Shown one piece after another: positions 8,040-26,480 of a stretch of DNA of 33,677 bases. The DNA is taken from assembly GCA_904419385.1 (NCBI GenBank), contig CAJFRI010000009.1, positions 1 through 33,677 on the forward strand, in the 5' to 3' direction. Under the pieces are notes generated by a model that saw only the letters and a list, made by a program, of their open reading frames with translations, ran no database searches and was not told where the DNA came from. The translations under genes and the position numbers were made by a program. Position 1 is the first letter of the stretch. Each line of letters starts with the position of its first letter. Source of the stretch: Candidatus Heteroscillospira lomanii (GTDB lineage: Bacteria; Bacillota; Clostridia; Oscillospirales; Oscillospiraceae).

Positions 8040-11000
8040 TCAGTCGGCGTCTATGGTCGACACGCGCGGGCAGATCTCCTCCAGGACCCCGAGCAGGGCC
8101 CTCACGGTGTCGAGCGAAGTGAATATCGTGACGTTGTTCTCGATGGCGCAGCGGCGTATCGCGGCGCCGTCCTCATAGTGGACTCCGGAGAGCACGGCGC
8201 GGGTGTTCACCACATAGCTCACCTTTCCGGAGCGTATCGACTCGAGGATCTCGGTGCTGCCCTCGCTGAGCTTGCGGCGCACCGTCGCCTTTATGCCGTG
8301 TTCGGCGAGGAACTCCGCCGTGCCTATGGTGGCCTCGAGGTCGAAACCGAGCTCGGCAAAGCGCCGCGCTATGGGCAGGGCCTCCTCCTTGTCCTCGTCC
8401 GCGAGAGTGAGGATGACAGCGCCCTCGCGCTCGAGCCTCAGCCCGGAGGCGAGCAGGGCTTTGTAGGTCGCGCGGTGGAGCTCCGAGTCGTAGCCTATGG
8501 CCTCGCCGGTCGACTTCATCTCCGGCGAGAGGAAGGCGTCCATGCCGCGCAGCTTCGCGAACGAGAAGGCCGGCGCCTTGACGTACCAGCGGCTGCGCTG
8601 CGGCATGGGCGCGCCGGCGAGCCCCTGCTCGCGCAGGCTCACGCCCAGCATGGCGAGCGTGGCGATATCGGCGAGCTGGCAGCCCGTGGCTTTCGAGAGG
8701 AAAGGCACCGTGCGCGAGGAGCGCGGGTTGACCTCGATGACGTAGACCTCCTCGTCCGGCGCGACGATGAACTGGATGTTATACAGCCCGACTATGCCTA
8801 TGCCGAGGCCGAGCTCGCGCGTGTAGCGCAGGATGGTCTCCTTCACGCGGCCGGATATGCTGAACGGCGGGTAGACGCTTATCGAGTCGCCGGAGTGGAC
8901 GCCGGTGCGCTCGACGAGCTCCATTATGCCGGGGACGAACACGTCGGTGCCGTCGCAGACGGCGTCGACCTCGACCTCGCGGCCTCGAATGTAGCGGTCG
9001 ATGAGCACCGGGCGCTCTTCGTCCATCTCGACCGAGGTCTCCAGATAGGCGCGCAGATGCTCTTCTTTTGCGACTATCTGCATGGCCCGGCCGCCGAGCA
9101 CGAAGCTCGGGCGCGCCAGCACGGGGTAGCCTATCTCGGCGGCGGCGCGCAGCCCGTCCTCCGCCGACGTCACCGCCCGGCCGCGCGGCTGCGGGATGCC
9201 GAGGCTGAGCAGCAGCTTTTCAAACACGTCGCGGTTCTCCGCGCGCTCGATGGCCTCGCAGCCCGTGCCGATGAGCTTCACGCCGCGCTCGGCAAGCGGC
9301 ATGGCGAGGTTGACGGCCGTCTGTCCGCCGAGGGACACGATGACGCCGTCGGGCTTTTCGAGCTCCACGACGTTCATGACGTCCTCGGGCGTCAGCGGCT
9401 CGAAATAGAGCTTGTCCGAGGTGGTGTAGTCGGTGGAGACCGTCTCGGGGTTGTTGTTGATGATTATGGCCTCGCAGCCGGCGGCGCGTATGGTCTTTAC
9501 GGCGTGGACCGTCGAGTAGTCGAACTCGACGCCCTGGCCTATGCGTATGGGTCCCGAGCCGAGCACGAGGATCTTGCGGCGGCCGGACACGCGCGACTCG
9601 TTCTCCTCCTCCCAGGTGGAGTAGAAATACGGGACATAGCTCTCGAACTCGCTCGCGCAGGTGTCTATCATCTTGTAAACGGGCTTTATGCCCCACTTCA
9701 GGCGCATATCATACACTTCGAGCTCGCTCATCCCCCACTCACGCGCTATCTCACAGTCGGAGAAGCCGAGTCGCTTGGCCTCGAGGCACAGCTCGCGCGA
9801 CACGCCGCCCTCGCGCAGGACGGCCTCGAACTCGACGATACGGCGCACACAGCGCAAAAACAGCGGGTCTATGCGGCAGGCGGCGAATATCTCCCCGTCG
9901 CCCACGCCGCGGCGCATGAGCTCCGCGATGGCAAATATGCGCTCATCCGTGCCGGAGGAGACATGGCGCATGAGTTCATCTCTGCCCGCGCCGGTGAGCT
10001 TGTCGAGCCTCAGGTGACAGGCGCCGATCTCGAGCGAGCGGACGGCCTTGAGCAGGCTCTCCTCCAGGCTGCGGCCGACGCTCATGACCTCGCCGGTGGC
10101 CTTCATCTGGGTGCCGAGGCTGTTGTCGGCGTCTGTGAACTTGTCGAACGGGAAACGCGGCATCTTGGTGACGACATAGTCGAGCGCGGGCTCAAAGCAG
10201 GCGGGAGTGTTGACGAGCATGATCTCGTCGAGGTGCATCCCGACGCTTATCTTGGCCGACACGCGGGCGATGGGATATCCGCTGGCCTTGGAGGCGAGCG
10301 CCGACGAGCGCGACACGCGGGGGTTGACCTCGATGAGGTAATATTGGAAAGAATTCGGGTCGAGCGCGAACTGCACATTGCAGCCGCCCTCTATCTCCAG
10401 CGCGCGTATCAGCTTCAGGGCGCTGTCGCGCAGCATCTGGTACTCCTTGTTGGTGAGCGTCTGCGAGGGGCAGACGACTATGGAGTCGCCGGTGTGTATG
10501 CCGACGGGGTCGATGTTCTCCATATTGCAGACGGCGATGGCGGTGTCGTTCGCGTCGCGCATTATCTCGTACTCTATCTCTTTATATCCGCGCACGCTCT
10601 TCTCGACCAGCACCTGGTGCACGGGCGAGAGCTCGAGCGCGTTTTTCATTATCTCGCGGAACTCATCCCCGTTTTCGGCGAAGCCGCCGCCCGTGCCGCC
10701 GAGGGTGAACGCCGGGCGCAGGACGACGGGATAGCCTATCTCCTCCGCCGCGGAGAGGCCCTCCTCCATGCTCTCCGCAGTGCGCGACGGGAGCACCGGC
10801 TCGCCCAGGCTCTCGCACAGCTCCTTGAACAGCTCGCGGTCCTCCGCGCGCTCTATACTGCTGCTGCGGGTGCCGAGTAGCTCGACGCCGTATTTTTCGA
10901 GCACGCCCTCGCGCTCGAGCTGCATGGCGAGATTGAGGCCCGTCTGGCCGCCTATGCCGGGGAGCAGGGCGTCGGGGCGCTCGCGCTTGATTATCGCGGT

Positions 11001-11222
11001 GAGGTATTCCGCGGTGAGCGGCTCCATGTACACGCGGTCGGCGATGGCGGAGTCGGTCATTATCGTCGCGGGGTTGGAGTTGCAGAGCACGACCTCATAG
11101 CCCTCTTCCCTCAGGGCGAGGCAGGCCTGGGTGCCCGCGTAGTCGAACTCGGCGGCCTGGCCTATGACTATGGGGCCGGAGCCTATCACCATTATTTTCT
11201 TCAGATCCGTTCTCTTAGGCAC
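8040..11222 (-). CDS. carB: Carbamoyl-phosphate synthase large subunit
   Basis: 1060 aa; duplicated ATP-grasp halves ([22 protein letters not shown] / [22 protein letters not shown]), C-terminal MGS domain. Confidence 0.98.
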
Positions 11223-12309
11223 GGCCCTGTCCCTCCTTCATCATGGCTGCAAAGCGCCGGAATATCCCCGCGCCGTCGTGCGGCCCCGGGGCGCTCTCCG
11301 GGTGGAACTGCACGCCGAACGCGCGCTCGGAGGCGTTCGCGACGCCCTCGACGGTGTTGTCGAGGAGGTTGCGGTGCGTCACGGCGAGGCCCGTGCCGGC
11401 GAGAGTGTCCTCGTCGACGGCATAGGAGTGGTTCTGCGCGGTCATGGCGATCTTGCCCGTGGCGAGCTCCATCACGGGGTGGTTGCCGCCGCGGTGGCCG
11501 AATTTGAGCTTGTAGGTCCGCGCCCCGCTCGCGAGGGCGAGAAGCTGGTTGCCGAGGCAGATGCCGAAGATGGGCATGCGCCCCATGAGCGCGCGGATGG
11601 TCTCGGCGGCCTCGGGCACGTCGGTGGGGTCGCCGGGCCCGTTCGACACGAGCAGGCCGTCGGGCGCCAGCGCGGCTATCTCCCCGGCCGGGGTGTCGTA
11701 CGGCATGACGGTCACGCGGCAGCCGCAATCAGCGAGCGAGGCGACTATGCTGAGCTTGACGCCGCAGTCGAGCAGCACGGCGCGCAGCGGCGCGTTTTCG
11801 CCGCCGGCGGTCCACGGCTCGCGGCACGACACGCGCCTGACCTGATCGTGCGGCAGCTCTGCGGCCTCGAGCCGCTCGAGCGCCGCCTCGACGGGGGTGC
11901 CGATATCGGTGATGAGGGCTTTCGACGAGCCGTGGTCGCGGATCGCGCGGGTGAGGCGGCGGGTATCGACGCCGCATATCCCGGCGATGCCATGGCGCAG
12001 CATGGCGGCCTCGAGCGGTTCCCTGCCGCGGAAGTTCGACGGCTCGCGTGTGTACTCGCGCACGATGAGCCCGTCGATGGCCGGGCGGCGGGTCTCGTAG
12101 TCGCCGTCGGCCAGGCCGTAGTTGCCGATGATGGGGTAGGTCATGACGACGGTCTGGCCCGTGTACGACAGGTCGGAGATTATCTCCTGATATCCCGCCA
12201 TGGAGGTGTTGAACACCACCTCGGTGACGCGCTCGGCGCCGTCGCCGAAGCCGTATCCGCAGAACTCGTCTCCGGTGGGCAGGACGAGCTTTCTGTTGTA
12301 TCCGTTCAT
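11215..12309 (-). CDS. carA: Carbamoyl-phosphate synthase small (glutamine amidotransferase) subunit
   Basis: [64 protein letters not shown]. Overlaps carB by 8 nt. Confidence 0.98.
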
Positions 12310-13925
12310 ATGTTCTCTCCTCTCCCGGCGCGCTCGAGCGCCGCTCCGACGAAGCCCATGAACAGGGGGTGCGGCCTGTTCGGCCTGCTCTTGAACTCGG
12401 GGTGGAACTGCACACCGACGAAAAACGGCCCGCCGCCGAGCTCCACGGCCTCGACCAGGCGCCCGTCGGGCGAAAGCCCCGCGAGGCGCAGCCCCGCGTC
12501 CGTGAGCGCGCCGCGGTACTCGTTGTTGAACTCATAGCGGTGGCGGTGCCGCTCGCTGATGAGGTCTGTGCCGTAGCACTCGGACATAAAGGTGCCGGGC
12601 TCTATGCGGCAGGGGTATGCGCCGAGGCGGAGCGTGCCGCCCTTGTCGACCTCCTCGCTCTGGCCGGGCATGAAGTCGATGACCTTGTGCGCGCACTCCG
12701 GGCAGAACTCGCCGGAGCCGGCGCCGGCAATGCCGGCGGCTGAGCGCGCGAACTCAATGACCGCGGTCTGCATGCCGAGGCAGATGCCGAAATACGGCAC
12801 GCGGTTCTCGCGGGCATATCTCGCGGCGAGGACCATGCCCTCTATGCCGCGGCTGCCGAAGCCGCCCGGCACTATTATGCCGTCGGCCTCGGCGAGCTTG
12901 GCCTCGCAGTTGTCCACGGTGAGGTTCTCGGAGTCCACCCAGTCTATGCACATCTGGGCGCCGTGGGCCCAGGCGGCGTGCCTGAGCGCCTCGGCGACGG
13001 AGAGATAGGCGTCGTGCAGGCGGACATATTTGCCGACGAGCGCCACGCGCACCGGGCGCTTTGCGTCCTCTATGCGCGCGACCATGTCGCGCCAGTCCTT
13101 GAGGTCGGGCTCCGGGGTCTCGAGCGACAGCTCGCGGCACACTATGCCCGACAGGCCCGACTGTTCAAGAAACAGCGGCGCTGAATAGAGCACCGGGAGC
13201 GTGAGGTTCTCTATCACGCAGTCGGGCTTCACGCCGCAGAAATCGGATATTTTGCTGAATATGGAGCGGTCGGTGATGGGCTCGTCGGCGCGCAGGACGA
13301 TGATGTCCGGCGAGATGCCGAGGCCCTGGAGCTCTTTCACCGAGTGCTGGGTAGGCTTTGACTTGTGCTCGCCGGAGGCGCGCAGATACGGCACCAGCGT
13401 GACGTGGATATAGAGCGCGTTGCCGCGGCCGGCCTCGCGGCCGACCTGCCTGATCGCCTCGAGGAAGGGCTGGCTCTCTATGTCGCCTATGGTGCCGCCG
13501 ACCTCGGTGATGACGACGTCGGCGCCGGTCTTTTCGCCGACGGCGTAGATGAAGCGCTTGATCTCGTCGGTGATGTGCGGGATGGTCTGCACCGTGCGGC
13601 CCAGGAACTCGCCGCGCCGCTCTTTTGATATGACGTTGGCGTAAACCTTGCCGGTGGTGAGATTCGAGAACCGGTTGAGGTCCTCGTCTATGAAACGCTC
13701 GTAATGCCCGAGGTCGAGGTCGGTCTCGGCGCCGTCCTCGGTGACGTAGACCTCGCCGTGCTGATAGGGGCTCATGGTGCCCGGGTCGAAATTTATGTAC
13801 GGGTCGAGTTTTTGTGCCGCGACCTTGAGCCCGCGGGCCTTGAGCAGCCGTCCGAGCGAGGCCGCCGTGATGCCCTTCCCGAGCCCGGACACGACCCCGC
13901 CGGTAACGAAAATGTATTTCGTCAT
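12306..13925 (-). CDS. pyrG: CTP synthase; start trimmed to [10 protein letters not shown]
   Basis: [76 protein letters not shown]; GATase GICLGMQ. GGAGGT Shine-Dalgarno; 4-nt overlap with carA. Confidence 0.98.
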
Positions 13926-13947: not shown

Positions 13948-13991
13948 GCAAAAAAGCGCCCGTCAGGGGGCACTTATCCCCTGACGAACGC
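13948..13991 (-). terminator. Intrinsic terminator in the pyrG leader (attenuator-like)
   Basis: Minus strand: GCG-tt-CGTCAGGGG-ATAAGTGC-CCCCTGACG-gg-CGC-TTTTTT, between the promoter and the pyrG Shine-Dalgarno. Confidence 0.82.
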
Positions 13992-13999
13992 CATTGTTC
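13986..13999 (-). promoter_or_regulatory. Small leader hairpin overlapping the base of the pyrG-leader terminator (candidate antiterminator element)
   Basis: Minus strand GAAC[AATGGC]GTTC; hexaloop with A1 and G4; its 3' arm overlaps the 5' arm of the terminator. Confidence 0.45.
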
Positions 14000-14008
14000 A
14001 ACTCAATT

Positions 14009-14065: not shown

Positions 14066-14650
14066 CTATCCGAGCTCTTTTATTATCTGCTCCGCCACGG
14101 CGCGGCGCGGGAGGCGGCTGTCCATCGATTTTTTCTCGATATACCTGTGCGCCTCGGCCTCAGCCATGCCCCGGCGCTCTATGAGCAGCCACTTCGCGCG
14201 GCTCACGAGCCTTATCTCCTCTATCTTCTCGTCGACGGAGGCGCGGCGGTCCTCCATGCGCACGATGCGCTCGCGCATGGCGCACATGACGCGGAGCATC
14301 TGCTCCACCGAGCTCAGCGGGGCCGGCTTTGCCATCGTGACCACCCCGTGCTCGAGGGCGCGGGCGCCGGCCTCCTCAAAATTGTCGCGCCGCACGAGGA
14401 GCAGCACTGCCGAACCGCTCCCGTCGCACAGGTCGCACGCAAGGCGCACTCCGTGGTCGTCGGGCAGCGGCGAATTTATTACCACGATGTCAAACTGCGC
14501 GTCCACTGTGCGGCGGCGGGCCTCGCCCGCGCTGTGCACGACGGTGACCGGCCAGAAATCCGTCGGCGGCAGGAGCGTCATCGCCGTGTTGTTGAAAGCC
14601 TCAACGGCCGATACGAGCAGGACGCTGTATGTCTTTTCCCTGAAAACCAC
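14066..14650 (-). CDS. ANTAR-domain response-regulator-like antiterminator with degenerate receiver domain
   Basis: C-terminal RLVSRAKWLLIERRGMAEAEAHRYIEKKSMDSRLPRRAVAEQIIKEL is a canonical ANTAR domain; N-terminal CheY-like fold with FDIVVINSPLPDDHG. Confidence 0.9.
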   Translation of the reverse strand: MVFREKTYSVLLVSAVEAFNNTAMTLLPPTDFWPVTVVHSAGEARRRTVDAQFDIVVINSPLPDDHGVRLACDLCDGSGSAVLLLVRRDNFEEAGARALEHGVVTMAKPAPLSSVEQMLRVMCAMRERIVRMEDRRASVDEKIEEIRLVSRAKWLLIERRGMAEAEAHRYIEKKSMDSRLPRRAVAEQIIKELG

Positions 14651-14681: not shown

Positions 14682-15893
14682 TCAGCGGTCCGCCCGGCAG
14701 TAGGCCTCGACTATCGCGTCGGGCAGATGTTCCCTGATGAAGCCGCTGGCCGAGGCGGCGGCCGCCGCCTCGGCATAGGAGGCGGGCAGGCGGCCGAAGC
14801 CGCGCAGCTCCTCGCTCGAAGCGGTGTAGAGGTTGAAGTCGGCGGCAGGCGGCAGCTCGAGCGCGTGGGCGATGCCGTGCAGCCCGGCGTGGATGATGAG
14901 CGCATACGCCAGATACGGGTTCGCCGCCGGGTCGGCCGAGCGGAGCTCGGCGCGGCGCTGCGGCCCCGTGGCCGCGGGGATGCGGATGAGCTGGGAGCGG
15001 TTCTCGCTCGACCAGCTTATATATCCCGGGGCCTTGCAGCTGCCGAGCCTGTCGAAAGAGGCCCTGGTGGGGTTGAGGAAGAGCGTCATGTCGCGGATTT
15101 TCGCCATCATGCCGGCGATGACCTGTGGCAGAGGATCGCCCTTGCCGTGCACGGAGACGTTTATGTGCATGCCGCTGCCGGGCTTGTCGGGCAGCGGCTT
15201 TGGCGAGAAGTCGGCGCAGAGGCCGTTGCGGGCCGCGATGGTCTTGACGACCGACTGGAAAGTGACCGCGTTGTCCGCCGCGGTGAGGGGGTCGGAGTAG
15301 CGGAAATCGATCTCGTTCTGGCTCGGCCCCTCCTCGTGGTGCGAACTCTCGGGCTGGATGCCCATGCGCTCGAGCGTGAGGCAGATCTCGCGGCGGATGT
15401 TCTCGCCGCGGTCGTCGGGGGCGATGTCCATATACCCGGCGTGGTCATACGGCTCGCGCGTCGGCTCGCCGCGCTCATCGGTCTTGAAGAGGTAAAACTC
15501 CAGCTCCGAGCCGAAGTCGAATTCATAGCCCGCGGCGCGGGCGTCGGCTACGGCCGATTTGAGTATGGCCCTGGTGTCGGTCTCGAGCTGGGAGCCGTCG
15601 GGCCGCGTGATGTCGCAGAACATGCGCACCACCCTGCCGCTCTCCGGGCGCCAGGGCAGGCCCGACAGCGTCGCCGGGTCGGGGCGGAGGAACATGTCGG
15701 AGCGGACCTCTCCGCCGAATCCCTCGATGGCCGAGGCATCTATGGCTATGCCGTACTCAAAGGCGCGCTCCAGCTCGCCCGGCATTACGGCGATGTTCTT
15801 CTGCCGGCCGAACACGTCGCAGAAGGCGAGGCGGATGAACTTCACGTCCTCCTCCGCCACATACTGCATGACCTCATCTTTTGAATAATTCAT
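14682..15893 (-). CDS. glnA: Glutamine synthetase type I, short C-terminus; start trimmed to MNYSKDEV
   Basis: FCDVFGRQKNIAVMPGELERAF, GSELEFYLF, SHHEEGPSQNEIDFRY, GSGMHINVSV, NRSQLIRIPAATG, AELRSADPAANPYLA. Confidence 0.95.
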   Translation of the reverse strand: MNYSKDEVMQYVAEEDVKFIRLAFCDVFGRQKNIAVMPGELERAFEYGIAIDASAIEGFGGEVRSDMFLRPDPATLSGLPWRPESGRVVRMFCDITRPDGSQLETDTRAILKSAVADARAAGYEFDFGSELEFYLFKTDERGEPTREPYDHAGYMDIAPDDRGENIRREICLTLERMGIQPESSHHEEGPSQNEIDFRYSDPLTAADNAVTFQSVVKTIAARNGLCADFSPKPLPDKPGSGMHINVSVHGKGDPLPQVIAGMMAKIRDMTLFLNPTRASFDRLGSCKAPGYISWSSENRSQLIRIPAATGPQRRAELRSADPAANPYLAYALIIHAGLHGIAHALELPPAADFNLYTASSEELRGFGRLPASYAEAAAAASASGFIREHLPDAIVEAYCRADR

Positions 15894-15921
15894 TGCCCGA
15901 TCCGCACTCCTTATATCAAGA

Positions 15922-16641
15922 TCAGTCAGCCACATACATCTGCTTGTACGGGCTGCGGCTGTCGGGCGTGACCACGGTGAAGGGCGAATCCATGATCTCC
16001 GCCGCGCTGCCGCCGAAATAGCCGCAGTAGCGCGCCGCGAGGGCGCTTATCTGCTCCAGGTCCCCGTCGCCGGCCGGGCGGGCGCTGACCTGTTTGGGGA
16101 ACACGATATTCTCACATGCGCCGCGCACATAGAGCTTTCCGCCGTGCATCCCCGTGCACGGGAAATTGCTCACAGGCGGGCGGCCGGGCTCTCCGAGGCC
16201 GAACACGGCTATGATGCCTCCGGCGAGATACTCGCCGATGAAGCTGCCGGCACAGCCGCCTATGACCATGACGGGGAGTTTGTCCTGATAGGCTTTCATA
16301 TGTATGCCGGCGCGGTAGCCCGCGTTGCCGCGGACATAGATCTCGCCGCCGCGCATGGCATAGCCCGCCGTGTCGCCTATGCTGCCGTGGACTATTATCG
16401 AACCGGAGTTCATGGTGTCGCCCACGGCGTCCTGGGCGTTGCCGAACACCTCGATGGTCCCGCCGTTGAGGTAGGCCCCCAGGGCGTTGCCCGGCACGCC
16501 GAATATCTTTATATCGCAGCCGCTCATGCCCGCCGCGATGAACCTCTGCCCCACGCATCCGCGCACCTCGCAGAAGCCTCCGGCGGCCCTGATGGCCTCA
16601 TTGAGCGCGGCGAAGTCTCTGCCGCGCGCATCTATTGTCAT
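15922..16641 (-). CDS. Glutamate synthase GXGXG-domain subunit (GltB C-terminal domain equivalent)
   Basis: Repeated GG-x-G beta-helix motifs (NGGTIEVFGNAQDAVGDTMNSGSIIVHGSIGDTAGYAMRGGEIYVRGNAGYRAGIHM). GGAGGTG Shine-Dalgarno upstream of the ATG at 16641. Confidence 0.93.
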   Translation of the reverse strand: MTIDARGRDFAALNEAIRAAGGFCEVRGCVGQRFIAAGMSGCDIKIFGVPGNALGAYLNGGTIEVFGNAQDAVGDTMNSGSIIVHGSIGDTAGYAMRGGEIYVRGNAGYRAGIHMKAYQDKLPVMVIGGCAGSFIGEYLAGGIIAVFGLGEPGRPPVSNFPCTGMHGGKLYVRGACENIVFPKQVSARPAGDGDLEQISALAARYCGYFGGSAAEIMDSPFTVVTPDSRSPYKQMYVAD

Positions 16642-16679
16642 AGTATCACACCTCCGCTTGTTTTTCCAGCTACGTTTTC

Positions 16680-18185
16680 TCACTCGCCGGCGTGCAGTAT
16701 GCCGAGTATCCTGAGCTCACGCTCGTGCATGCCGACTCCGCGGAGCATGAGCCTGTTGCCGCGCAGAGCTTCTATCGAGTTTATGCCCATGCCGCCCATC
16801 ATCTCCTTGATCTCGTGCTTCCACGCTGTCATGAGCATGACGAGCCGGCGGCTGCCCTCGTCGGGATCGAGTCTCTTGACGAGCTCCTCCCTCTGGGTGG
16901 CGATGCCCCAGCTGCACCTGCCGTCCTGGCAGCTGCGGCAGAGATGGCAGCCGAGCGCGAGCAGGGCCGCCGTGCCTATATAGCAGGCGTCTGCCCCGAG
17001 GGCCACGGCCTTCACGACGTCGGCCGAGGAGCGGATGCTGCCGCCCACGACGAGCGACACGTTGTTCCTTATCCCCTCCTCGCGCAGCCGGGTGTCGACC
17101 GCGGCGAGCGCGAGCTCTATGGGTATGCCGACGTTGTCGCGTATGCGGGTCGGGGCCGCGCCCGTGCCGCCGCGGTAGCCGTCGATGGCTATTATGTCCG
17201 CGCCGCTGCGGGCTATGCCGCTCGCTATGGCCGCGATGTTATGCACGGCGGCGACCTTGACGATGATGGGCTTTTTATATCCCGTCGCCTCTTTGAGCGA
17301 GTACACGAGCTGGCGCAGGTCCTCTATGGAGTAGATGTCGTGGTGCGGCGCGGGGGAGATGGCGTCGGAGCCCTCGGGTATCATGCGGGTGCGGGAGATG
17401 TCGACGCCCACCTTGGCGCCGGGCAGGTGCCCGCCTATGCCGGGCTTCGCGCCCTGGCCAATCTTTATCTCTATGGCGGCGCCGGCCTCGAGGTACTGCT
17501 CGTGCACGCCGAAGCGCCCGGAGGCGACCTGGACTATGGTGTTCCGGCCGTATTTGTAGAAATCCTCGTGCAGCCCGCCCTCGCCGGTGTTGTAGTATAT
17601 GCCGAGCTCCTCGGCCGCGCGGGCGAGGCTCTCGTGCGCGTTGTAGCTTATCGAGCCGTAGCTCATGGCGGAGAACATGACGGGCAGCGACAGTTCGAGC
17701 TGGGGCGGCAGGGTGCAGTCGAGCCCGCCGTCCGCCCGGCGGACTATGCGCTCGGGCTTGCGCCCGAGGAACACGCGCGTCTCCATCGGCTCGCGCAGCG
17801 GGTCTATGGACGGGTTCGTGACCTGCGAGGCGTTTATCAGCATGCGGTCCCAATAGACCGGCTGGGGCTTGGGGTTGCCCATGGACGAGAGCAGCACTCC
17901 GCCGCTCATCGCCTGCTTGTAGACCTGCTGTATGGTCTTGGAATCCCAGTTGGAATTCTCGCGCAGGCGGTTGTCGGTGCGCACGATCTTGATGGCGCGT
18001 GTCGGGCAGGTGGCGACGCAGCGCTGGCAGTCGACGCACTTCGTCTCGTCGGCCGCCATGGCCTTGGCCTTCGCGTCGTAGCTGTGCACCTCATGGGCGC
18101 ACTGCTTCTCGCATATGCGGCAGCGGGTGCACTTGGCGTCGCTGCGCACGACCTCGAATTCGGGCCAGATATAGTTCACATTCAT
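16680..18185 (-). CDS. Glutamate synthase central (FMN-binding) subunit with N-terminal 2x[4Fe-4S] ferredoxin domain
   Basis: CTRCRICEKQCAHEV... CVDCQRCVATCPTRAIKIV; GQGAKPGIGGHLPGAKV, SPAPHHDIYSIEDL, IIAIDGYRGGTGAAPTRIRDNVG. True start MNVNYIWPEF at 18185 (TGATG overlap with the upstream gene), not 18593 as in the track. Confidence 0.95.
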   Translation of the reverse strand: MNVNYIWPEFEVVRSDAKCTRCRICEKQCAHEVHSYDAKAKAMAADETKCVDCQRCVATCPTRAIKIVRTDNRLRENSNWDSKTIQQVYKQAMSGGVLLSSMGNPKPQPVYWDRMLINASQVTNPSIDPLREPMETRVFLGRKPERIVRRADGGLDCTLPPQLELSLPVMFSAMSYGSISYNAHESLARAAEELGIYYNTGEGGLHEDFYKYGRNTIVQVASGRFGVHEQYLEAGAAIEIKIGQGAKPGIGGHLPGAKVGVDISRTRMIPEGSDAISPAPHHDIYSIEDLRQLVYSLKEATGYKKPIIVKVAAVHNIAAIASGIARSGADIIAIDGYRGGTGAAPTRIRDNVGIPIELALAAVDTRLREEGIRNNVSLVVGGSIRSSADVVKAVALGADACYIGTAALLALGCHLCRSCQDGRCSWGIATQREELVKRLDPDEGSRRLVMLMTAWKHEIKEMMGGMGINSIEALRGNRLMLRGVGMHERELRILGILHAGE

Positions 18186-19279
18186 CAATACCGCCCCTCC
18201 TTTACCCTCACGATGACCGGCTCGCCGCCGGCCGGGGCCCAGACGTTCTCGGCGTCGGGCTCGATCGCGCGTATGGCCGACTCCTCGCTCGCTATGAACA
18301 CGCGGTCGCCCTTCTCGCCGACGACCATGCTGCGCAGCTTGAGCCTGTCGTTGAGCGCCATGAGCCCTCCCGAGAAGCCGAGGACTATGGAGAACGGCCC
18401 TGTGACAAGCAGGCTCGGGAACGCGGTGCGCAAATAGGTGAGCTTTTCGCGCTCCGCCTCCGGGGCGCGCGCTATGGTGGACCAGAAAGGCGCCGCGATG
18501 ACGGAGGCGAGTTCCTCCAGCGTGAGGCCCTGTCGCCGCACGAGGTAGTCCGCGATATAGGTGATGACCTCGGTGTCGGTCTGGAGGGTGCACTTATATC
18601 CGAACATCTCTATGAATCGGCGGTTGGCGTCGTAGGACGAGATCTCGCCGTTGTGGACGACGGAGAAATCGAGCAGGGAAAACGGGTGCGCCCCGCCCCA
18701 CCAGCCGGGCGTGTTCGTGGGATAGCGGCCGTGGGCCGTCCAGGAATAGGCCCCGTACTCATCGAGCCGGTAGAAGCGGCCGACGTCCTCGGGGAAGCCG
18801 ACGGCCTTGAAAACGCCCATGTTCTTGCCGCTGGAGAACACATGGCAGCCGTCGAGGCAGGCGTTTATGTGCATTACCAGCCGCGCCATGAACTCGTTCT
18901 CGTTCTGCTGCCTCTCCGCGAGGACGGAGCGCAGCGGCGTGACGAAATATCTCCATATCATGGGCTCGTCGGTGATCTCTGCGGTGGTGCGCGTGGGCAT
19001 GCGCTCCGACTTGACGACCTCGACCTCGTCGTGCAGGTATTTTTCACAGTCGGCTCTGGCGCTGCGGCTGTCGAAAAACAGGTGGAGCGCGAAGTAATCG
19101 CGGTATTCAGGATAGATGCCATAGCCGGCAAAGCCGCCTCCGAGGCCGTTCGAGCGGTCGTGCATAGGTATCATGCTTTTTATGATGCCTTCGCCGGACA
19201 TGCGCTCGCCGCTGGTCGATATCACGGCGGATATCGCGCAGCCGGAGGGGATGCGGATCTGGCCCTCCAATTGTTTCAT
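18185..19279 (-). CDS. Glutamate synthase class II glutamine amidotransferase subunit (GltB domain 1 equivalent); start trimmed to MKQLEGQIR
   Basis: SGCAISAVIS, GLGGGFAGYGIYPEY, GRYPTNTPGWWGGAHPFSLLDFSVVHNGEISSY, QTDTEVITYIADYL: N-terminal nucleophile GATase motifs. Confidence 0.92.
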   Translation of the reverse strand: MKQLEGQIRIPSGCAISAVISTSGERMSGEGIIKSMIPMHDRSNGLGGGFAGYGIYPEYRDYFALHLFFDSRSARADCEKYLHDEVEVVKSERMPTRTTAEITDEPMIWRYFVTPLRSVLAERQQNENEFMARLVMHINACLDGCHVFSSGKNMGVFKAVGFPEDVGRFYRLDEYGAYSWTAHGRYPTNTPGWWGGAHPFSLLDFSVVHNGEISSYDANRRFIEMFGYKCTLQTDTEVITYIADYLVRRQGLTLEELASVIAAPFWSTIARAPEAEREKLTYLRTAFPSLLVTGPFSIVLGFSGGLMALNDRLKLRSMVVGEKGDRVFIASEESAIRAIEPDAENVWAPAGGEPVIVRVKEGRY

Positions 19280-19302
19280 GGCTCCCAGTCCTTTCAGAAA
19301 AT

Positions 19303-19348
19303 AAAAAGGGCGCCTGCTCATGGGCACAGCATGCCCAAAGCAAACGCC
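19303..19348 (-). terminator. Intrinsic terminator in the glutamate synthase operon leader
   Basis: Minus strand: GGCG-tt-TGCT-tt-GGGCA-TGCTG-TGCCC-atg-AGCA-gg-CGCC-CTTTTT. Confidence 0.78.
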
Positions 19349-19356
19349 TTCGTTTG
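19341..19356 (-). promoter_or_regulatory. Small leader hairpin overlapping the glutamate synthase leader terminator (candidate antiterminator element)
   Basis: Minus strand CAAACG-AAGG-CGTTTG at the predicted 5' end of the RNA; its 3' half overlaps the terminator base (GGCG). Confidence 0.45.
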
Positions 19357-19429: not shown

Positions 19430-19458
19430 TTGACAAGGGCGTTTTTTTGGCGTATATT
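19430..19458 (+). promoter_or_regulatory. Promoter of the glnN operon
   Basis: TTGACA (19430-19435), 17-nt spacer, TATATT (19453-19458). Confidence 0.85.
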
Positions 19459-19469
19459 ATGCCACATCA

Positions 19470-19483
19470 AGACGCAGACGTCT
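19470..19483 (+). promoter_or_regulatory. Small leader hairpin overlapping the glnN leader terminator (candidate antiterminator element)
   Basis: AGACG-CAGA-CGTCT immediately 3' of the predicted transcription start. Confidence 0.45.
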
Positions 19484-19518
19484 CTGAGGGATATCCTCAG
19501 CGGCGCCTGCGTCTTTTT
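19471..19518 (+). terminator. Intrinsic terminator in the glnN leader
   Basis: GACGCAG...(CTGAGG-GATAT-CCTCAG)...CTGCGTC-TTTTT, between the promoter and the glnN Shine-Dalgarno. Confidence 0.8.
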
Positions 19519-19542
19519 CATTTTCGGAAAGGATGACGAACA

Positions 19543-21639
19543 ATGGCAAGCATACCTGAGTATTTCGGCAGCATGGTCTTTGATGACAGAGTGATGCGCT
19601 CGCGCCTCACCTCCGAGGTATATGATTCTCTCCAGCGCACCATAGTCGAGGGCAAGAAACTCGACGTATCCGTGGCCAACGCGGTCGCCGAGGCGATGCG
19701 CGACTGGGCCGTCGAGAAAGGCGCCACCCATTTCACCCACTGGTTCCAGCCCATGACCGGCATCACCGCCGAGAAGCACGACAGCTTCATCACCCCCTCG
19801 CCCGACGGCGGCGTCATCATGGAGTTCTCCGGCAAAGAGCTCATCAAGGGCGAGCCCGACGCCTCCAGCTTCCCCTCAGGCGGCCTGCGCGCCACGTTCG
19901 AGGCCAGGGGCTACACCGCCTGGGACCCCACCTCATATGCGTTCATAAAGGGCAAGACCCTCTGCATCCCCACCGCGTTCTGCTCCTACGGCGGCGAGGC
20001 GCTCGACAAAAAGACCCCGCTCCTGCGCTCGATGGAGGCCCTGAACCGCCAGGCCCTGCGCATACTCAAGCTCTTCGGCAGGGACGACGTCCGCCGCGTG
20101 ACCACCTCGGTCGGCCCCGAGCAGGAGTATTTCCTCGTGACCAAGGAGCTCTATGACAGGCGTCCCGACCTCATCTACACCGGGCGCACCCTCTTCGGCG
20201 CCAAGCCTCCGAAGGGCCAGGAGCTCGACGACCACTACTTCGGCGTGATAAAGCCGCGCGTGGCCGAATTCATGGCCGACCTGAACGAGGAGCTCTGGAA
20301 GCTCGGCATCCTCGCCAAGACCGAGCACAACGAGGTCGCCCCGGCGCAGCACGAGCTTGCCCCCATATATACCACCACCAACATCGCCACCGACAACAAC
20401 CAGCTCACCATGGAGATCATGCAGCGCGTCGCCGCGAAGCACGGCCTCGTCTGCCTGCTCCACGAGAAGCCTTTCGACGGCGTGAACGGCTCCGGCAAGC
20501 ACAACAACTGGTCCATCGCCACCGACGCCGGCGCAAACCTCCTCTCCCCGGGCGACACCCCGCACGAGAACGCGCAGTTCCTGCTCTTCCTCGTCGCCGT
20601 CATCAAGGCCGTCGACGACTATCAGGACCTGCTGCGCACCTCCGTCGCCACCGCCGGCAACGACCACCGTCTCGGCGCCAACGAGGCCCCTCCGGCCGTC
20701 ATCTCCGTGTTCCTCGGCGACGAGCTCACGGCCATCCTCGAGTCCATAGAGAACGACGCGCCTTACAGCTCAGTTGAAAAGACCATCATGAAGCTCGGCG
20801 TCCACGCCCTGCCGCGCTTCACCCGCGACACCACCGACCGCAACCGCACCTCGCCTTTCGCTTTCACCGGCAACAAGTTCGAGTTCCGCATGGTCGGCTC
20901 GTCCGACTCCATCGCCTGCGCCAACATCATGCTGAACGCCGCCGTGGCCGACACCCTGCGCATCTTCGCCGACGAGCTCGAACCCGCCGCCGACTTCAAC
21001 TCCGCCCTGCACGAGCTCATCAAGGACACCATCATCAAGCACAAGCGCATCATCTTCAACGGCAACGGCTATGACGACGCCTGGATCGAGGAGGCCACCA
21101 AGGTCCGCGGCCTGAGCAACCTGCGCACCACGCCCGACTGCATGCCCAGCCTCATCGCCGAGAAGAACATGGCCATGCTCACCGGCGAGAGGGTCTACAC
21201 CGAGGCCGAGCTCCACTCCCGCTATGAGATCCTGCTCGACAACTACTGCAAGGCCGTCAGCATAGAGGCCCGGACCATGTGCCAGATGGCGCGCCGCGAC
21301 ATCCTGCCCGCCATCGAATCCTATGCGGCCTCCCTCGCCTCCGCCGCCGCGGCAAAGACCGCCGTCGTGCCCGCGGCCGGCTGCCGCTTTGAGAAAAAGA
21401 CCGTCGCCCTCCTGAGCGGGCTGGCCGACGTCATAGACGAGGGCATAGAGTCCCTCGCCTCCGCGCTCGCCGAAGTCTCGGCCCGCGGCGACATTGCCGC
21501 CCAGGCCGGCGGAATCCGCGACGAGATCCTGCCGCGCATGGACGCCCTGCGCAAATCGGTCGACGAGGCCGAGACGCTCACCTCCAGCGAATACTGGCCG
21601 TATCCGTCCTACGGCGAGCTGCTCTTCGGCGTGAGATAA
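19543..21639 (+). CDS. glnN: Glutamine synthetase type III
   Basis: 698 aa; [108 protein letters not shown]. Confidence 0.98.
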
Positions 21640-21640
21640 G

Positions 21641-21682
21641 GGCCGTTTACGGCCGGGCTCCCGCCCGGATGGAGGCGGGAGC
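21641..21682 (+). other. Two consecutive intercistronic hairpins between glnN and amt, no T-tract
   Basis: GGCCG-TTTA-CGGCC (21641-21654) and GCTCCCGCC-CGGATGGA-GGCGGGAGC (21657-21682). Confidence 0.6.
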
Positions 21683-21714
21683 ATGACAATATGAAAGGTG
21701 AAGGAGAAACCACT

Positions 21715-23427
21715 ATGGAATACAGTGCGGTAAATACTATGTGGGTTCTGATCGGAGCGGCTCTGGTGTTTTTCATGCAGGCTGGATTCTCAATGTGCGA
21801 GGCCGGCTTCACGCGGGCAAAGAACACCGGCAACATACTCATGAAAAACCTCATGGATTTCTGCATAGGCACGCCTTGTTTCTGGCTGTTCGGATTTGGG
21901 ATAATGTTCGGCGGCAGCTCTGCCATCATAGGCACGCTCGACCCGATGATAAGAGGCGATTACAGCGCCATACTCCCCTCCGGCGTGCCGCTCTGGGCTT
22001 ACGTCATCTTTCAGACCGTGTTCTGCGCCACAGCCGCCACGATAGTCTCCGGAGCAATGGCTGAGCGCACGAAGTTCTCCGCCTACTGCATATACAGCGC
22101 CGCCATATCCCTGTTCATCTATCCCATATCCGGCCACTGGATATGGGGCGGCGGCTGGCTCGCACAGCTGGGCTTTCACGACTTTGCCGGCTCCACCTGC
22201 GTCCACATGGTCGGCGGCATCTGCGCCATGGTCGGCGCCGCAATACTCGGGGCCCGCATAGGCAAGTACGACAAAGACGGCAAGCCCCGCGCCATTCTCG
22301 GCCACAATCTCACCTTTGCGGCGCTGGGCGTGTTCATACTCTGGTTCTGCTGGTTCGGCTTCAACGGGGCTTCGACCGTCGGCATGGACAGCGACGAGCT
22401 CATCGAACGTGCCGGTCTGGTGTTTTTCAACACGAACATCTCGGACGCGGTCGCCTGCTGTGCCGCCCTCATCGTGACCTGGCTGCGCTACGGCAAGCCC
22501 GATGTGTCCATGACATACAACGCGGCTCTCGCCGGGCTCGTCGGCATCACCGCTGGCTGCGACGCGGTCGAGCCGCTCGGTGCCGCCGTGATGGGCGTCA
22601 TCTTCGGCATCGTGATAGTATTCTCGGTTGAATTCTTCGACAAGGTGCTCAAGATAGACGACCCCGTGGGCGCCATATCTGTGCACGACGTATGCGGGGC
22701 GCTTGGGACGCTGCTGCTGGGCTTCTTTGCCTCCGGTTCGTCCACCGAGCCGGGCCTGTTCTACGGCGGCGGCCTCCACTTCCTCGGCATACAGGCCGCC
22801 GGAGTCCTGAGCGTCGCAGCGTACACCGCGGTGGTGATAACCGTAGTGTTCACGCTGATCAAGCACACCATCGGCCTGCGCGCCTCCGCCGCCGACGAGC
22901 TTGCCGGACTCGACATATCCGAGCACGGCCTGCTCACTGCCTACGCCGGCTTCGCCATGCTGCCCGACACCGTCGCCTCCGGCAGCGAGCCCGATCTCAC
23001 TCCCCCGCCGTTCGAGCCCGTGCCCGACTATGAGGCCGTGCCCGTTGAGCGGCGCAGGGCGTCCGGCGAACACAAGCTCACAAAAGTTGAGATAATCTGC
23101 CGTGAGGGCCGTTTTGAGGCGCTCAAAAACGCATTGACCGGCATAGGCATCACCGGTATGACCGTGTCGCATGTGCTCGGCTGCGGCATACAGAAGGGCC
23201 GTCCTGAATACTACCGCGGCGTACAGGTCGAGGCAGCGCTGCTGCCCAAGGTGCAGGTCGACATAGTCGTGAGCAAGGTGCCGGTGCGCGAGGTCATTGA
23301 AGTCGCCAAAAAAGTGCTCTACACCGGCCATATAGGAGACGGCAAAATATTCATCTACGACGTCGAGAACGCCGTTAAAGTCCGCACAGGCGAGGAGGGC
23401 TACGACGCGCTCCAGGACGTCGAATAA
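21715..23427 (+). CDS. Ammonium transporter (Amt) with C-terminal PII signal-protein domain fusion; start trimmed to MEYSAVNTMW
   Basis: Amt: AGFSMCEAGFTRAKNTGNILMKNLMDF, GHWIWGGGWLAQLGFHDFAGS, HDVCGALGTLLLGFFA. PII: TKVEIICREGRFEALKNAL... GCGIQKGRPEYYRG... LLPKVQVDIVV... YTGHIGDGKIFIYDVENAVKVRTGEEG. AAGGAG Shine-Dalgarno. Confidence 0.95.
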   Translation: MEYSAVNTMWVLIGAALVFFMQAGFSMCEAGFTRAKNTGNILMKNLMDFCIGTPCFWLFGFGIMFGGSSAIIGTLDPMIRGDYSAILPSGVPLWAYVIFQTVFCATAATIVSGAMAERTKFSAYCIYSAAISLFIYPISGHWIWGGGWLAQLGFHDFAGSTCVHMVGGICAMVGAAILGARIGKYDKDGKPRAILGHNLTFAALGVFILWFCWFGFNGASTVGMDSDELIERAGLVFFNTNISDAVACCAALIVTWLRYGKPDVSMTYNAALAGLVGITAGCDAVEPLGAAVMGVIFGIVIVFSVEFFDKVLKIDDPVGAISVHDVCGALGTLLLGFFASGSSTEPGLFYGGGLHFLGIQAAGVLSVAAYTAVVITVVFTLIKHTIGLRASAADELAGLDISEHGLLTAYAGFAMLPDTVASGSEPDLTPPPFEPVPDYEAVPVERRRASGEHKLTKVEIICREGRFEALKNALTGIGITGMTVSHVLGCGIQKGRPEYYRGVQVEAALLPKVQVDIVVSKVPVREVIEVAKKVLYTGHIGDGKIFIYDVENAVKVRTGEEGYDALQDVE

Positions 23428-23457
23428 AAAACAAAGACAGATCGGAAGAGGTCAGAT

Positions 23458-25038
23458 ATGTGTTCTATTATGGGTTACTGCGCGCCATGCGCCGATCTTG
23501 AGCTATTCAAACAGGGCTTCGGCCGCACGGTCTCCCGCGGCCCCGACGACAGCCGCATCGCCGACACGGGGCGCGGCCTGCTCGGGTTCCACCGGCTCGC
23601 CATCATGGGGCTGAGCCCCGAGGGCATGCAGCCGTTTGAACTCGACGGGAGCTATGTCGTGTGCAACGGGGAGATCTACGGCTTTGAAAAGCTGCGCGAG
23701 GCCCTCTCGGATAAGTATACTTTCAAAAGCGGCTCCGACTGCGAGGTGCTGCTCCCGCTCTGGCGCGAGCACGGCACCGGCATGTTCCCCATGCTCGACG
23801 CGGAGTTCGCCCTCGTCATCTACGACGCCGCAACTCAGGGCTTTATCGCCGCCCGCGACCCGATCGGCATCCGCCCTCTGTTCTACGGCTACGATAAAAA
23901 CGGCGCGATCATGTTCGCCAGCGAGGCCATAAACCTCGTCGGCCTCTCCGATCACATCATGCCTTTCCCGCCGGGATGCTACTGGAAGGACGGCGAGTTC
24001 GTGCGCTACTGCGACATCGCGGCCCCGCACGGCAGCGTCATCGGCGGGCTCGGCGAGGTCTGCGCCGGGATACGCGCCCGGCTTATCCGGGCCGTTGAGA
24101 AGCGCCTGGTCTCGGACGCGAAAGTCGGATTCCTGCTCAGCGGCGGGCTCGACTCCTCTCTCGTGTGCTCCATCGCACAGCGCAGCTCGGAGCAGCCCAT
24201 ACGCACCTTTGCGATAGGCATGGACACCGACGCGATAGACCTGAAATACGCCCGCGAGGCGGCCGATTTCCTCGGCTGCGACCACACGGAGGTCATCATC
24301 ACCCGCGGCGACGTCATCTCCTCGCTCGAGAAAGTCGTGAAAACGCTCGGCACCTTCGACATAACCACCATCCGCGCCAGCATGGGCATGTATCTCGTCT
24401 GCAAATACATCCACGAGCACACCGACATCCGCGTGCTGCTCACCGGCGAGGTGTCCGACGAGCTGTTCGGCTACAAGTACACCGACTTCGCCCCCTCGGC
24501 GGATGAGTTCCAGCGCGAGGCGGAGAAGCGCGTGCGCGAGCTGTACATGTACGACGTGCTCCGCGCCGACCGCTGCATCTCGGTCAACTCGCTCGAGGCG
24601 CGCGTCCCCTTCGGCGACCTCGACTTCGTGAGCTATGTCATGGCGATAGACCCCGAGATGAAAATGAACCGCTACGGCAAGGGCAAATACCTTCTGCGCC
24701 ACGCGTTCGAGGGCGGCGGCTGGCTGCCCGACGGCATACTGTGGCGCGAGAAGGCCGCCTTTTCCGACGCCGTCGGCCACTCCCTCGCCGACGACCTGAA
24801 GGAGTATGCAGACTCGCTCTACACCGACGCGGAATTCGAGGAGAAGCGCAGCAAATACAGCCACGCGCAGCCGTTCACCAAGGAATCGCTGCTCTACCGC
24901 GAGCTGTTTGAAAAATATTACCCCGGCCAGGCCGGCATGATAAAGGACTTCTGGATGCCGAACCGCTCCTGGCCCGGCTGCGACGTCGACGACCCTTCGG
25001 CCAGGGTGCTCACAAACTACGGCGACAGCGGGAGGTAA
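23458..25038 (+). CDS. asnB: Asparagine synthase (glutamine-hydrolysing)
   Basis: MCSIMGY N-terminal Cys nucleophile, RGPDDSR, NGEIYGFEKLRE, LLSGGLDSSLVCSIA, LTGEVSDELFGYKY. Confidence 0.96.
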   Translation: MCSIMGYCAPCADLELFKQGFGRTVSRGPDDSRIADTGRGLLGFHRLAIMGLSPEGMQPFELDGSYVVCNGEIYGFEKLREALSDKYTFKSGSDCEVLLPLWREHGTGMFPMLDAEFALVIYDAATQGFIAARDPIGIRPLFYGYDKNGAIMFASEAINLVGLSDHIMPFPPGCYWKDGEFVRYCDIAAPHGSVIGGLGEVCAGIRARLIRAVEKRLVSDAKVGFLLSGGLDSSLVCSIAQRSSEQPIRTFAIGMDTDAIDLKYAREAADFLGCDHTEVIITRGDVISSLEKVVKTLGTFDITTIRASMGMYLVCKYIHEHTDIRVLLTGEVSDELFGYKYTDFAPSADEFQREAEKRVRELYMYDVLRADRCISVNSLEARVPFGDLDFVSYVMAIDPEMKMNRYGKGKYLLRHAFEGGGWLPDGILWREKAAFSDAVGHSLADDLKEYADSLYTDAEFEEKRSKYSHAQPFTKESLLYRELFEKYYPGQAGMIKDFWMPNRSWPGCDVDDPSARVLTNYGDSGR

Positions 25039-25040
25039 GC

Positions 25041-26480
25041 ATGGCAGACAGGCATATACACGAGGAGTGCGGCGTGTTCGGCATATATTCGCCGAAACGC
25101 GCCCCGCTCGCCGAACTCACATATTTCGGGCTCTACGCCCTTCAGCACCGCGGGCAGGAGAGCGCCGGCATCGTCGTGAACGACGACGGCGTCTTCGCCG
25201 CGCAAAAGGAGCCCGGCCTCGTGGGTGAAGCCTTCACTCACGACGACCTGCGCGCCCTCGGCGAGGGCAACATCTCCGTCGGCCATGTGCGCTATGCGAC
25301 CACGGGCTCCGACAACCGGCGCAACGCCCAGCCCATAGTCATAGACCACCACAAGGGCGCCCTCGCGCTCGCCCACAACGGCAACCTCGTAAACGCATGG
25401 GAGCTGCGCACGTCGCTCGAGGAGGCGGGCTGCATCTTCCACACGACCTCCGACTCGGAGATAATCGCATACGTCATAGTCCAGGAGCGGCTGCGCCATG
25501 CCTCCATCGAGGAGGCGGTGTCGGCCGCGATGGCGCGTCTTAAAGGGGCGTACTCCCTCGTCATCTCCTCTCCGGCCAAGCTCATCGCCGCCCGCGACGA
25601 ACACGGCTTCCGCCCGCTGTGCATGGGCACGAGGGCCGACGGCAGCACGGTATTCGCCTCGGAGTCGTGCGCTCTCGACGCCGTGGGCGCAAAGCTCGTG
25701 CGCGAGATAGAGCCGGGCGAGATCGTCGTCGTGTCGGCCTCGGGCGCGCGCTCGATAAAAGACCACTGCGGCAAGGCGCCGCACAGCCTCTGCGTGTTTG
25801 AATATATTTATTTCGCGCGGCCCGACTCAATCATCGAGGGCGCGGGAGTCAGCCTCGCGCGGCAGCGCGCGGGCCGCTTCCTCGCCGGGGAGCACCCCGT
25901 CGAGGCCGACGCCGTCATCGGTGTGCCCGACTCGGGGCTCGACGCCGCGCTGGGCTACGCCGCGGCCTCCGGCATACCCTATGCCATCGGCTTCACCAAG
26001 AACAAATACATAGGCCGCACCTTCATCGCCCCCGAGCAGAGCATGCGCGAGGAGGGCGTCGACATAAAGCTCGGGCCCGTCCGCTCGGCCGTCGAGGGCA
26101 AGCGCATAGTCCTCATCGACGACTCCATAGTGCGCGGCACGACCTGCCGCCGCACCATAGAGATGCTGCGCCGCGCCGGAGCCAGGGAGATACACATGCG
26201 CGTGAGCGCGCCGCCCTTCGTCGCCCCCTGCTACTACGGCACGGATGTCGACAGCGCCGACCGGCTCATAGCCAACCACCACACCGTGCCCGAGATAGCG
26301 CAGATCATCGGCGCCGACTCGCTCGGCTATCTCAGCATGGAGCACGCCATGCAGCTCACGGGCAAGAAGTGCGGCGGGTTCTGCGCGGCATGCTTCGGCG
26401 GCGGCTACCCCGCCGGCGAGCCCTCCGCCGGCGGCAAGAACCGCTTTGAAAAAAAGAAGATACACGACAAAAAAGAGTAA
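25041..26480 (+). CDS. purF: Amidophosphoribosyltransferase
   Basis: ECGVFGIY, ALQHRGQESAGIVV, GNLVNAWELR, IGVPDSGLDAALGYA, VLIDDSIVRGTTCRRTIEMLRRAGA, CGGFCAACFGGGYP. Confidence 0.97.
   Translation: MADRHIHEECGVFGIYSPKRAPLAELTYFGLYALQHRGQESAGIVVNDDGVFAAQKEPGLVGEAFTHDDLRALGEGNISVGHVRYATTGSDNRRNAQPIVIDHHKGALALAHNGNLVNAWELRTSLEEAGCIFHTTSDSEIIAYVIVQERLRHASIEEAVSAAMARLKGAYSLVISSPAKLIAARDEHGFRPLCMGTRADGSTVFASESCALDAVGAKLVREIEPGEIVVVSASGARSIKDHCGKAPHSLCVFEYIYFARPDSIIEGAGVSLARQRAGRFLAGEHPVEADAVIGVPDSGLDAALGYAAASGIPYAIGFTKNKYIGRTFIAPEQSMREEGVDIKLGPVRSAVEGKRIVLIDDSIVRGTTCRRTIEMLRRAGAREIHMRVSAPPFVAPCYYGTDVDSADRLIANHHTVPEIAQIIGADSLGYLSMEHAMQLTGKKCGGFCAACFGGGYPAGEPSAGGKNRFEKKKIHDKKE

Follow-up and report, generated by a model that had tools for sequence, protein, structure and literature searches.

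A probable NitR-type ANTAR regulator with a degenerate receiver and candidate single-hexaloop leader targets in nitrogen operons of Clostridia

In a 33,677-nucleotide stretch of the Candidatus Heteroscillospira lomanii genome (hereafter the window), the gene that directly follows glnA encodes a protein with a degenerate receiver and an intact ANTAR domain, and three operon leaders each carry a hexaloop that competes with an intrinsic terminator. The protein is likely to be a NitR-type ANTAR antiterminator with a phosphorylation-dead receiver that would act on these three hexaloop-terminator leaders. Of the findings, the stronger are those on the leaders, candidate RNA targets that were overlooked in the original prediction. 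On balance, we also lean towards a wider view, i.e., a widespread regulon of Clostridia in which a phosphorylation-dead ANTAR antiterminator acts on single-hexaloop leaders at the transcript start, glutamine-making and glutamine-using operons are controlled jointly, and the signal is other than PII.

Genomic context of the regulator

The original prediction had placed an ANTAR regulator with a pseudo-receiver domain directly downstream of glnA, which was borne out by the position of the open reading frame, by Pfam and by profile alignment (Table 1). The gene starts 31 bases past the glnA stop codon on the same strand. Its 194-aa product matches the ANTAR family at aa 140-190 above the curated cut-off (Pfam PF03861; E 5.4e-16, 58.6 bits vs 27.3), its match to Response_reg lies below the cut-off (E 8.7e-4, 19.9 bits vs 30.2), and it is the sole ANTAR protein in the source genome. 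The gene belongs to a GS/GOGAT cluster, behind glnA and with gltB further upstream, and by its ANTAR domain and this gene context the predicted protein matches a NitR-type ANTAR regulator, for which the reference was a description only. The amidotransferase, ferredoxin-FMN and C-terminal domains of the glutamate synthase large subunit are encoded by three separate genes, and the ammonium transporter at 21691-23427 has a fused C-terminal PII domain, an arrangement common among nitR-carrying relatives. Elsewhere, the source genome encodes another GSIII, with no leader match (G000:C53:2128-4221), and another ammonium transporter with PII sequence behind it (G000:C14:21788-23386). An ANTAR protein is encoded in 35 of the 60 related genomes, and matches to the family profile at E<=1e-20 were found in 96 of 240 genomes of the class.

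Table 1. Features of the window, with predicted promoters and leader attenuators.
Feature	Position	Strand	Basis or remark
nitR-like gene, pseudo-receiver + ANTAR protein, 194 aa, GTG start	14066..14650	-	ORF, Pfam, profile alignment
Asn59 codon (AAT), phospho-acceptor position	14474..14476	-	
ANTAR RNA-binding domain, aa 140-190	14081..14233	-	
glnA, glutamine synthetase type I, directly 5' of nitR	14682..15935	-	
Split glutamate synthase genes gltB3, gltB2, gltB1, overlapping or nearly, upstream of glnA	15922..19327	-	
Putative operon glnN (GSIII), amt-PII fusion, asnB, purF, 3' of glnN leader	19543..26480	+	
Putative operon pyrG, carA, carB, 3' of pyrG leader	8040..13925	-	
gltB leader attenuator, P1 CAAAC[GAAGGC]GTTTG at 19341-19356, overlaps terminator	19300..19356	-	model E 1.0e-4, training row
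gltB leader promoter TTGACA-17-TATCTT	19391-19363	-	predicted
glnN leader attenuator, P1 AGAC[GCAGAC]GTCT at 19470-19483, overlaps terminator	19469..19519	+	model E 3.3e-6, training row
glnN leader promoter TTGACA-17-TATATT	19430-19458	+	predicted
pyrG leader attenuator, P1 TGAAC[AATGGC]GTTCG within 13984-14001, overlaps terminator 13992-13955	13955..14001	-	model E 1.0e-3, outside training set
pyrG leader promoter	14038-14009	-	predicted

Degeneration of the receiver site

A family profile built from 24 homologues, all of which score for ANTAR and 19 of which score for a receiver, was aligned to Rv1626 (1S8N) over nearly the whole length and without gaps around the acceptor (E 4.5e-26); further matches were EutV (6WSH, E 1.7e-13), AmiR (E 5.6e-13, C-terminal half), NasR and many receivers. 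In the profile alignment Asn59 takes the place of the acceptor Asp that closes beta3, the Glu-Asp pair after beta1 is replaced by S14-A15 (no readable homologue has the acidic pair), and of the Thr/Ser and Lys of phosphorylated response regulators only the lysine is kept, as Lys108, with Val86 at the switch Thr. The original prediction had read an Asn in place of the phospho-acceptor Asp, a missing N-terminal acidic pair and a remaining lysine, and the alignment to Rv1626 places all three as claimed; the loss of the switch Thr/Ser is an additional one that it did not list. AlphaFold on the single sequence gave a mean pLDDT of 54 and no usable receiver.

The acceptor column was then read in 100 aligned rows from the relatives and the class Clostridia, of which 99 were readable at this position and one was not. 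Asn was found in 76 homologues, Asp in 10, His in 5, Gly in 4, and Val, Ser, Glu and Ala in one each, i.e., the residue is other than Asp in 89 of the 99. The Asp-bearing homologues are scattered over the tree (at least seven changes for Asp, 14 changes in all), and so many independent changes would be as expected of a site that is not used for phosphate. At the same time, the motif N-x-P-L-x-D-[DE]-x-G is conserved in place of the usual receiver loop and the lysine is kept. The site thus appears degenerate yet constrained, which would fit control by contact or by a ligand better than decay, and, judged from these alignments, the degenerate receiver is a trait of the family and not a matter of chance. 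Phosphorylation-independent control, as originally proposed, is well supported by the non-Asp acceptor in 89 of 99 homologues and by the absence of the Mg-binding acidic pair from all readable rows.

A histidine kinase might nevertheless control NitR by placing phosphate on D64 or D65 of NSPLPDD, or on the Asp of some homologues, because D64 is nearly invariant, Asp occupies the acceptor position in 10 homologues, and about 20 HATPase_c matches (some possibly other than kinases) occur in the whole genome. We consider this highly improbable. In the profile alignments it is N59, not D64, that falls on the acceptor of Rv1626, of EutV and of an NtrC-family receiver, D64 lying five residues further on in the beta3-alpha3 loop, and the acidic pair and mostly the switch Thr are lost as well, the Asp-bearing homologues included. 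No kinase adjoins nitR in the window; the earlier statement that none is encoded there agrees with the window content but carries little weight because of the HATPase_c matches genome-wide.

Candidate leader attenuators

The leaders of glnN-amt-asnB-purF, gltB-glnA-nitR and pyrG-carAB each contain one promoter-proximal hexaloop hairpin (P1). In each leader, P1 lies a few bases past a sigma-70-like promoter and shares bases with the stem of a terminator that is followed by a U-tract. By predicted energies the terminator fold is favoured by about 8-13 kcal/mol over the best P1-retaining fold, and therefore P1 would need help to form. No Rfam family was found for the glnN, gltB and pyrG leaders. 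The pyrG loop (AATGGC) is a full fit to the minimal single-hexaloop target (stem, A1, G4 and terminator overlap). In the glnN (GCAGAC) and gltB (GAAGGC) loops G4 is kept, but position 1 is G where ANTAR targets have A, which speaks against NitR acting on two of the three leaders. In these two loops G1 and C6 could pair, turning the hexaloop into a tetraloop.

We infer the direction of control and the binding of NitR to the leaders from sequence, with predictions for the promoters, the 5' ends of the transcripts and the folding energies. With an adequate supply of nitrogen or glutamine, NitR would be held inactive, the leaders would fold as terminators and the operons would be mostly off. When supply runs short, NitR would become active and bind, probably in dimeric form, to the one hexaloop that the growing transcript carries at its 5' end, stabilising P1, so that the terminator is blocked and transcription may read through into gltB-glnA-nitR, glnN-amt-asnB-purF and pyrG-carAB. 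The circuit would be self-reinforcing because nitR lies inside one of its own target operons. The signal would reach the pseudo-receiver via contact or a ligand, not via phosphate.

A further point against such a mechanism is that ANTAR antitermination, where studied, depends on two hexaloops: EutV acts on two, and altering the linker between them sharply lowered induction (PMC3369931). The EutV-RNA structure showed that the dimer engages a single hexaloop at any one time, and the minimal motif was redefined as one hexaloop, although antitermination by EutV requires both and work on single-site use was called for (PMC8934654). For the present leaders the canonical dual-hexaloop reading was rejected in 30 of 33, which lack a second ANNG hexaloop hairpin ahead of their first U-tract; such a hairpin was found in 3 of the 33 leaders and in none of those in the window. 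Relative to the predicted promoters, the hexaloop starts 11-19 bases (mostly 13-17) past the end of the -10 box; this puts P1 at the predicted transcript start and leaves no space for another hexaloop in front of it. Some relatives have glnN leaders with two complete units in tandem. Single-hexaloop leaders would have escaped earlier target searches because these demanded two hairpins (PMC3369931). The protein is of a known type, and the RNA layout with one hairpin is a variant that has seldom been documented.

Leader units in related genomes

Of 60 leaders that belong to glnN, gltB and amt homologues, 30 carry a C[RNNGRY]G loop backed by four or more further pairs, whereas dinucleotide shuffles gave 0.49. 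The P1 stems of the relatives differ (TGAAC/GTTCA, AAGGC/GTCTT, GAGAC/GTCTC, ACAGC/GCTGT, CGGC/GTCG), while the loop stays near AANGGC. Covariation of the five-pair stem was 0.80, compared to 0.31 in column-shuffled and at most 0.21 in slid alignments; the rows had been preselected for stems of at least four pairs, and the dinucleotide shuffles are the fairer test. P1 is consumed by the downstream-paired terminator in the predicted minimum-energy fold of 32 of 33 leaders.

A covariance model that spans the promoter and P1, built from the 33 leaders, was searched in the 60 genomes. Among the 23 matches outside the training set at E<=1e-3, 16 or more precede amt, asnB, asnA, gdhA, glnA, gltB or pyrG; the remainder include dapF and purB, and a few look spurious. 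Single-hexaloop units also lie 5' of a gene for NADP glutamate dehydrogenase (L116 in G021, AAGGGC) and of dapF (L128 in G053, AATGGC). As far as these predicted hairpins tell, the hexaloop unit, with its covarying stem, recurs throughout the order in front of nitrogen genes.

Matches to the RNA model were present in 27 of 35 genomes with an ANTAR protein vs 2 of 25 without one (p 7e-8), most of the ANTAR-bearing genomes having served for training. With the training genomes excluded, the counts were 4 of 12 vs 2 of 25 (p 0.07), which makes the link between protein and RNA model only suggestive there and weakens the case for NitR acting on the leaders. Two genomes in which no ANTAR protein was detected, G041 (purB; L120/L140) and G051 (asnA; L111), carry perfect units, which likewise counts against it and would instead suit ordinary promoter-proximal attenuators that work with another factor, NitR acting elsewhere. 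We regard the latter as unlikely, since the units are mostly on nitrogen genes of nitR-carrying genomes and the loop fits the ANTAR signature of EutV (A1 in nearly all, a C-G closing pair, and G4, which was required in choosing the leader rows) (PMC3369931). NitR-dependent antitermination remains the reading that we prefer.

Possible signals and partners

The original prediction had named GlnA, GlnN or the PII domain as possible partners. Co-occurrence with the regulator was counted over 59 relatives (34 with and 25 without it) for GSI (31 of 34 vs 4 of 25, p 4e-9), for Amt-PII (23 of 34 vs 2 of 25, p 3e-6) and for GltB1 (18 of 34 vs 0 of 25). GSIII showed no association (27 of 34 vs 22 of 25, p 0.49), and GlnN was rejected as a partner on this ground.

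This co-occurrence, together with a place in a putative target operon, speaks for the Amt-fused PII domain (21691-23427) as the partner of NitR. Five genomes that encode NitR (G036, G013, G042, G054 and G055; 95-99% complete), however, lack any P-II family protein, which rules out PII as a general partner and leaves a role of the fused domain quite improbable.

Only GlnA thus stood from the original list, strongly associated with the regulator, and it is the best single partner candidate, although not an obligatory one. Glutamine-bound, feedback-inhibited GS might sequester NitR, as AmiC does with AmiR, NasS with NasT and Bacillus GS with TnrA, and we tentatively take glutamine-loaded GlnA as the foremost single input, short of calling it probable. 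In addition to the co-occurrence, glnA lies within 400 bases upstream of the regulator gene in 88 of 100 rows, contact control has precedents among ANTAR proteins in AmiC-AmiR and NasS-NasT (PMC3369936, PMC3795266), and the GS-TnrA contact has been described (PMC6316151). Shared operon membership alone, however, could produce an equal association, and G016 (99% complete) and G007 (88%) both lack GSI yet keep NitR and leader targets (in G016, the glnN leader). In these genomes nitR lies 5' of pyrG (G016) or of carA (G007). They form one supported, long-branched clade in the tree, and because of this a secondary loss of GSI with rewiring is possible.

The next candidate after GlnA is a small metabolite, whether glutamine, 2-oxoglutarate or a nucleotide, that may bind in or near the former acceptor pocket of the pseudo-receiver. 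The conserved pocket rim N-x-P-L-x-D-[DE]-x-G with its lysine, and the occurrence of NitR both without PII and without GSI, are consistent with such a ligand; we consider a ligand conceivable but rather doubtful.

Comparison with known systems

A NitR-type protein and the nitrogen theme are already known: according to a review, the ANTAR regulator NitR of Clostridium saccharobutylicum uses antitermination to induce GS/GOGAT genes when nitrogen is limiting (PMC6316151), and a broad link between ANTAR targets and nitrogen genes was drawn by Ramesh et al. In the open-licence literature we found no description of a family-wide N-x-P-L-x-D-[DE] pseudo-receiver, of single-hexaloop leaders, or of operons that make glutamine and operons that use it being controlled together. 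The regulon offers dozens of natural single-hexaloop attenuators for testing and suggests how Clostridia, some of them without a PII protein, could tie nitrogen assimilation to glutamine demand.

Among the characterised regulators, NitR of C. saccharobutylicum, compared by description only, is alike as an ANTAR regulator of GS/GOGAT genes (PMC6316151). AmiR of Pseudomonas aeruginosa resembles the present protein in its unphosphorylated, contact-controlled pseudo-receiver with coiled coil and ANTAR domain (PMC3369936), but it has the partner AmiC, of which no counterpart was noticed in the window, and the receiver half of the present family matches true receivers, Rv1626 among them, and not AmiR. 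NasT, which is freed from its sensor NasS, is likewise a receiver-ANTAR protein that governs nitrogen assimilation via leader RNA (PMC3795266), although its sensor binds nitrate and none was noticed here. EutV differs in its acceptor Asp54, its kinase and its need for two hexaloops (PMC8934654), whereas EutV and Rv1626 are the closest solved folds by sequence, and the hexaloop signature and terminator overlap of EutV targets are common to the present leaders.
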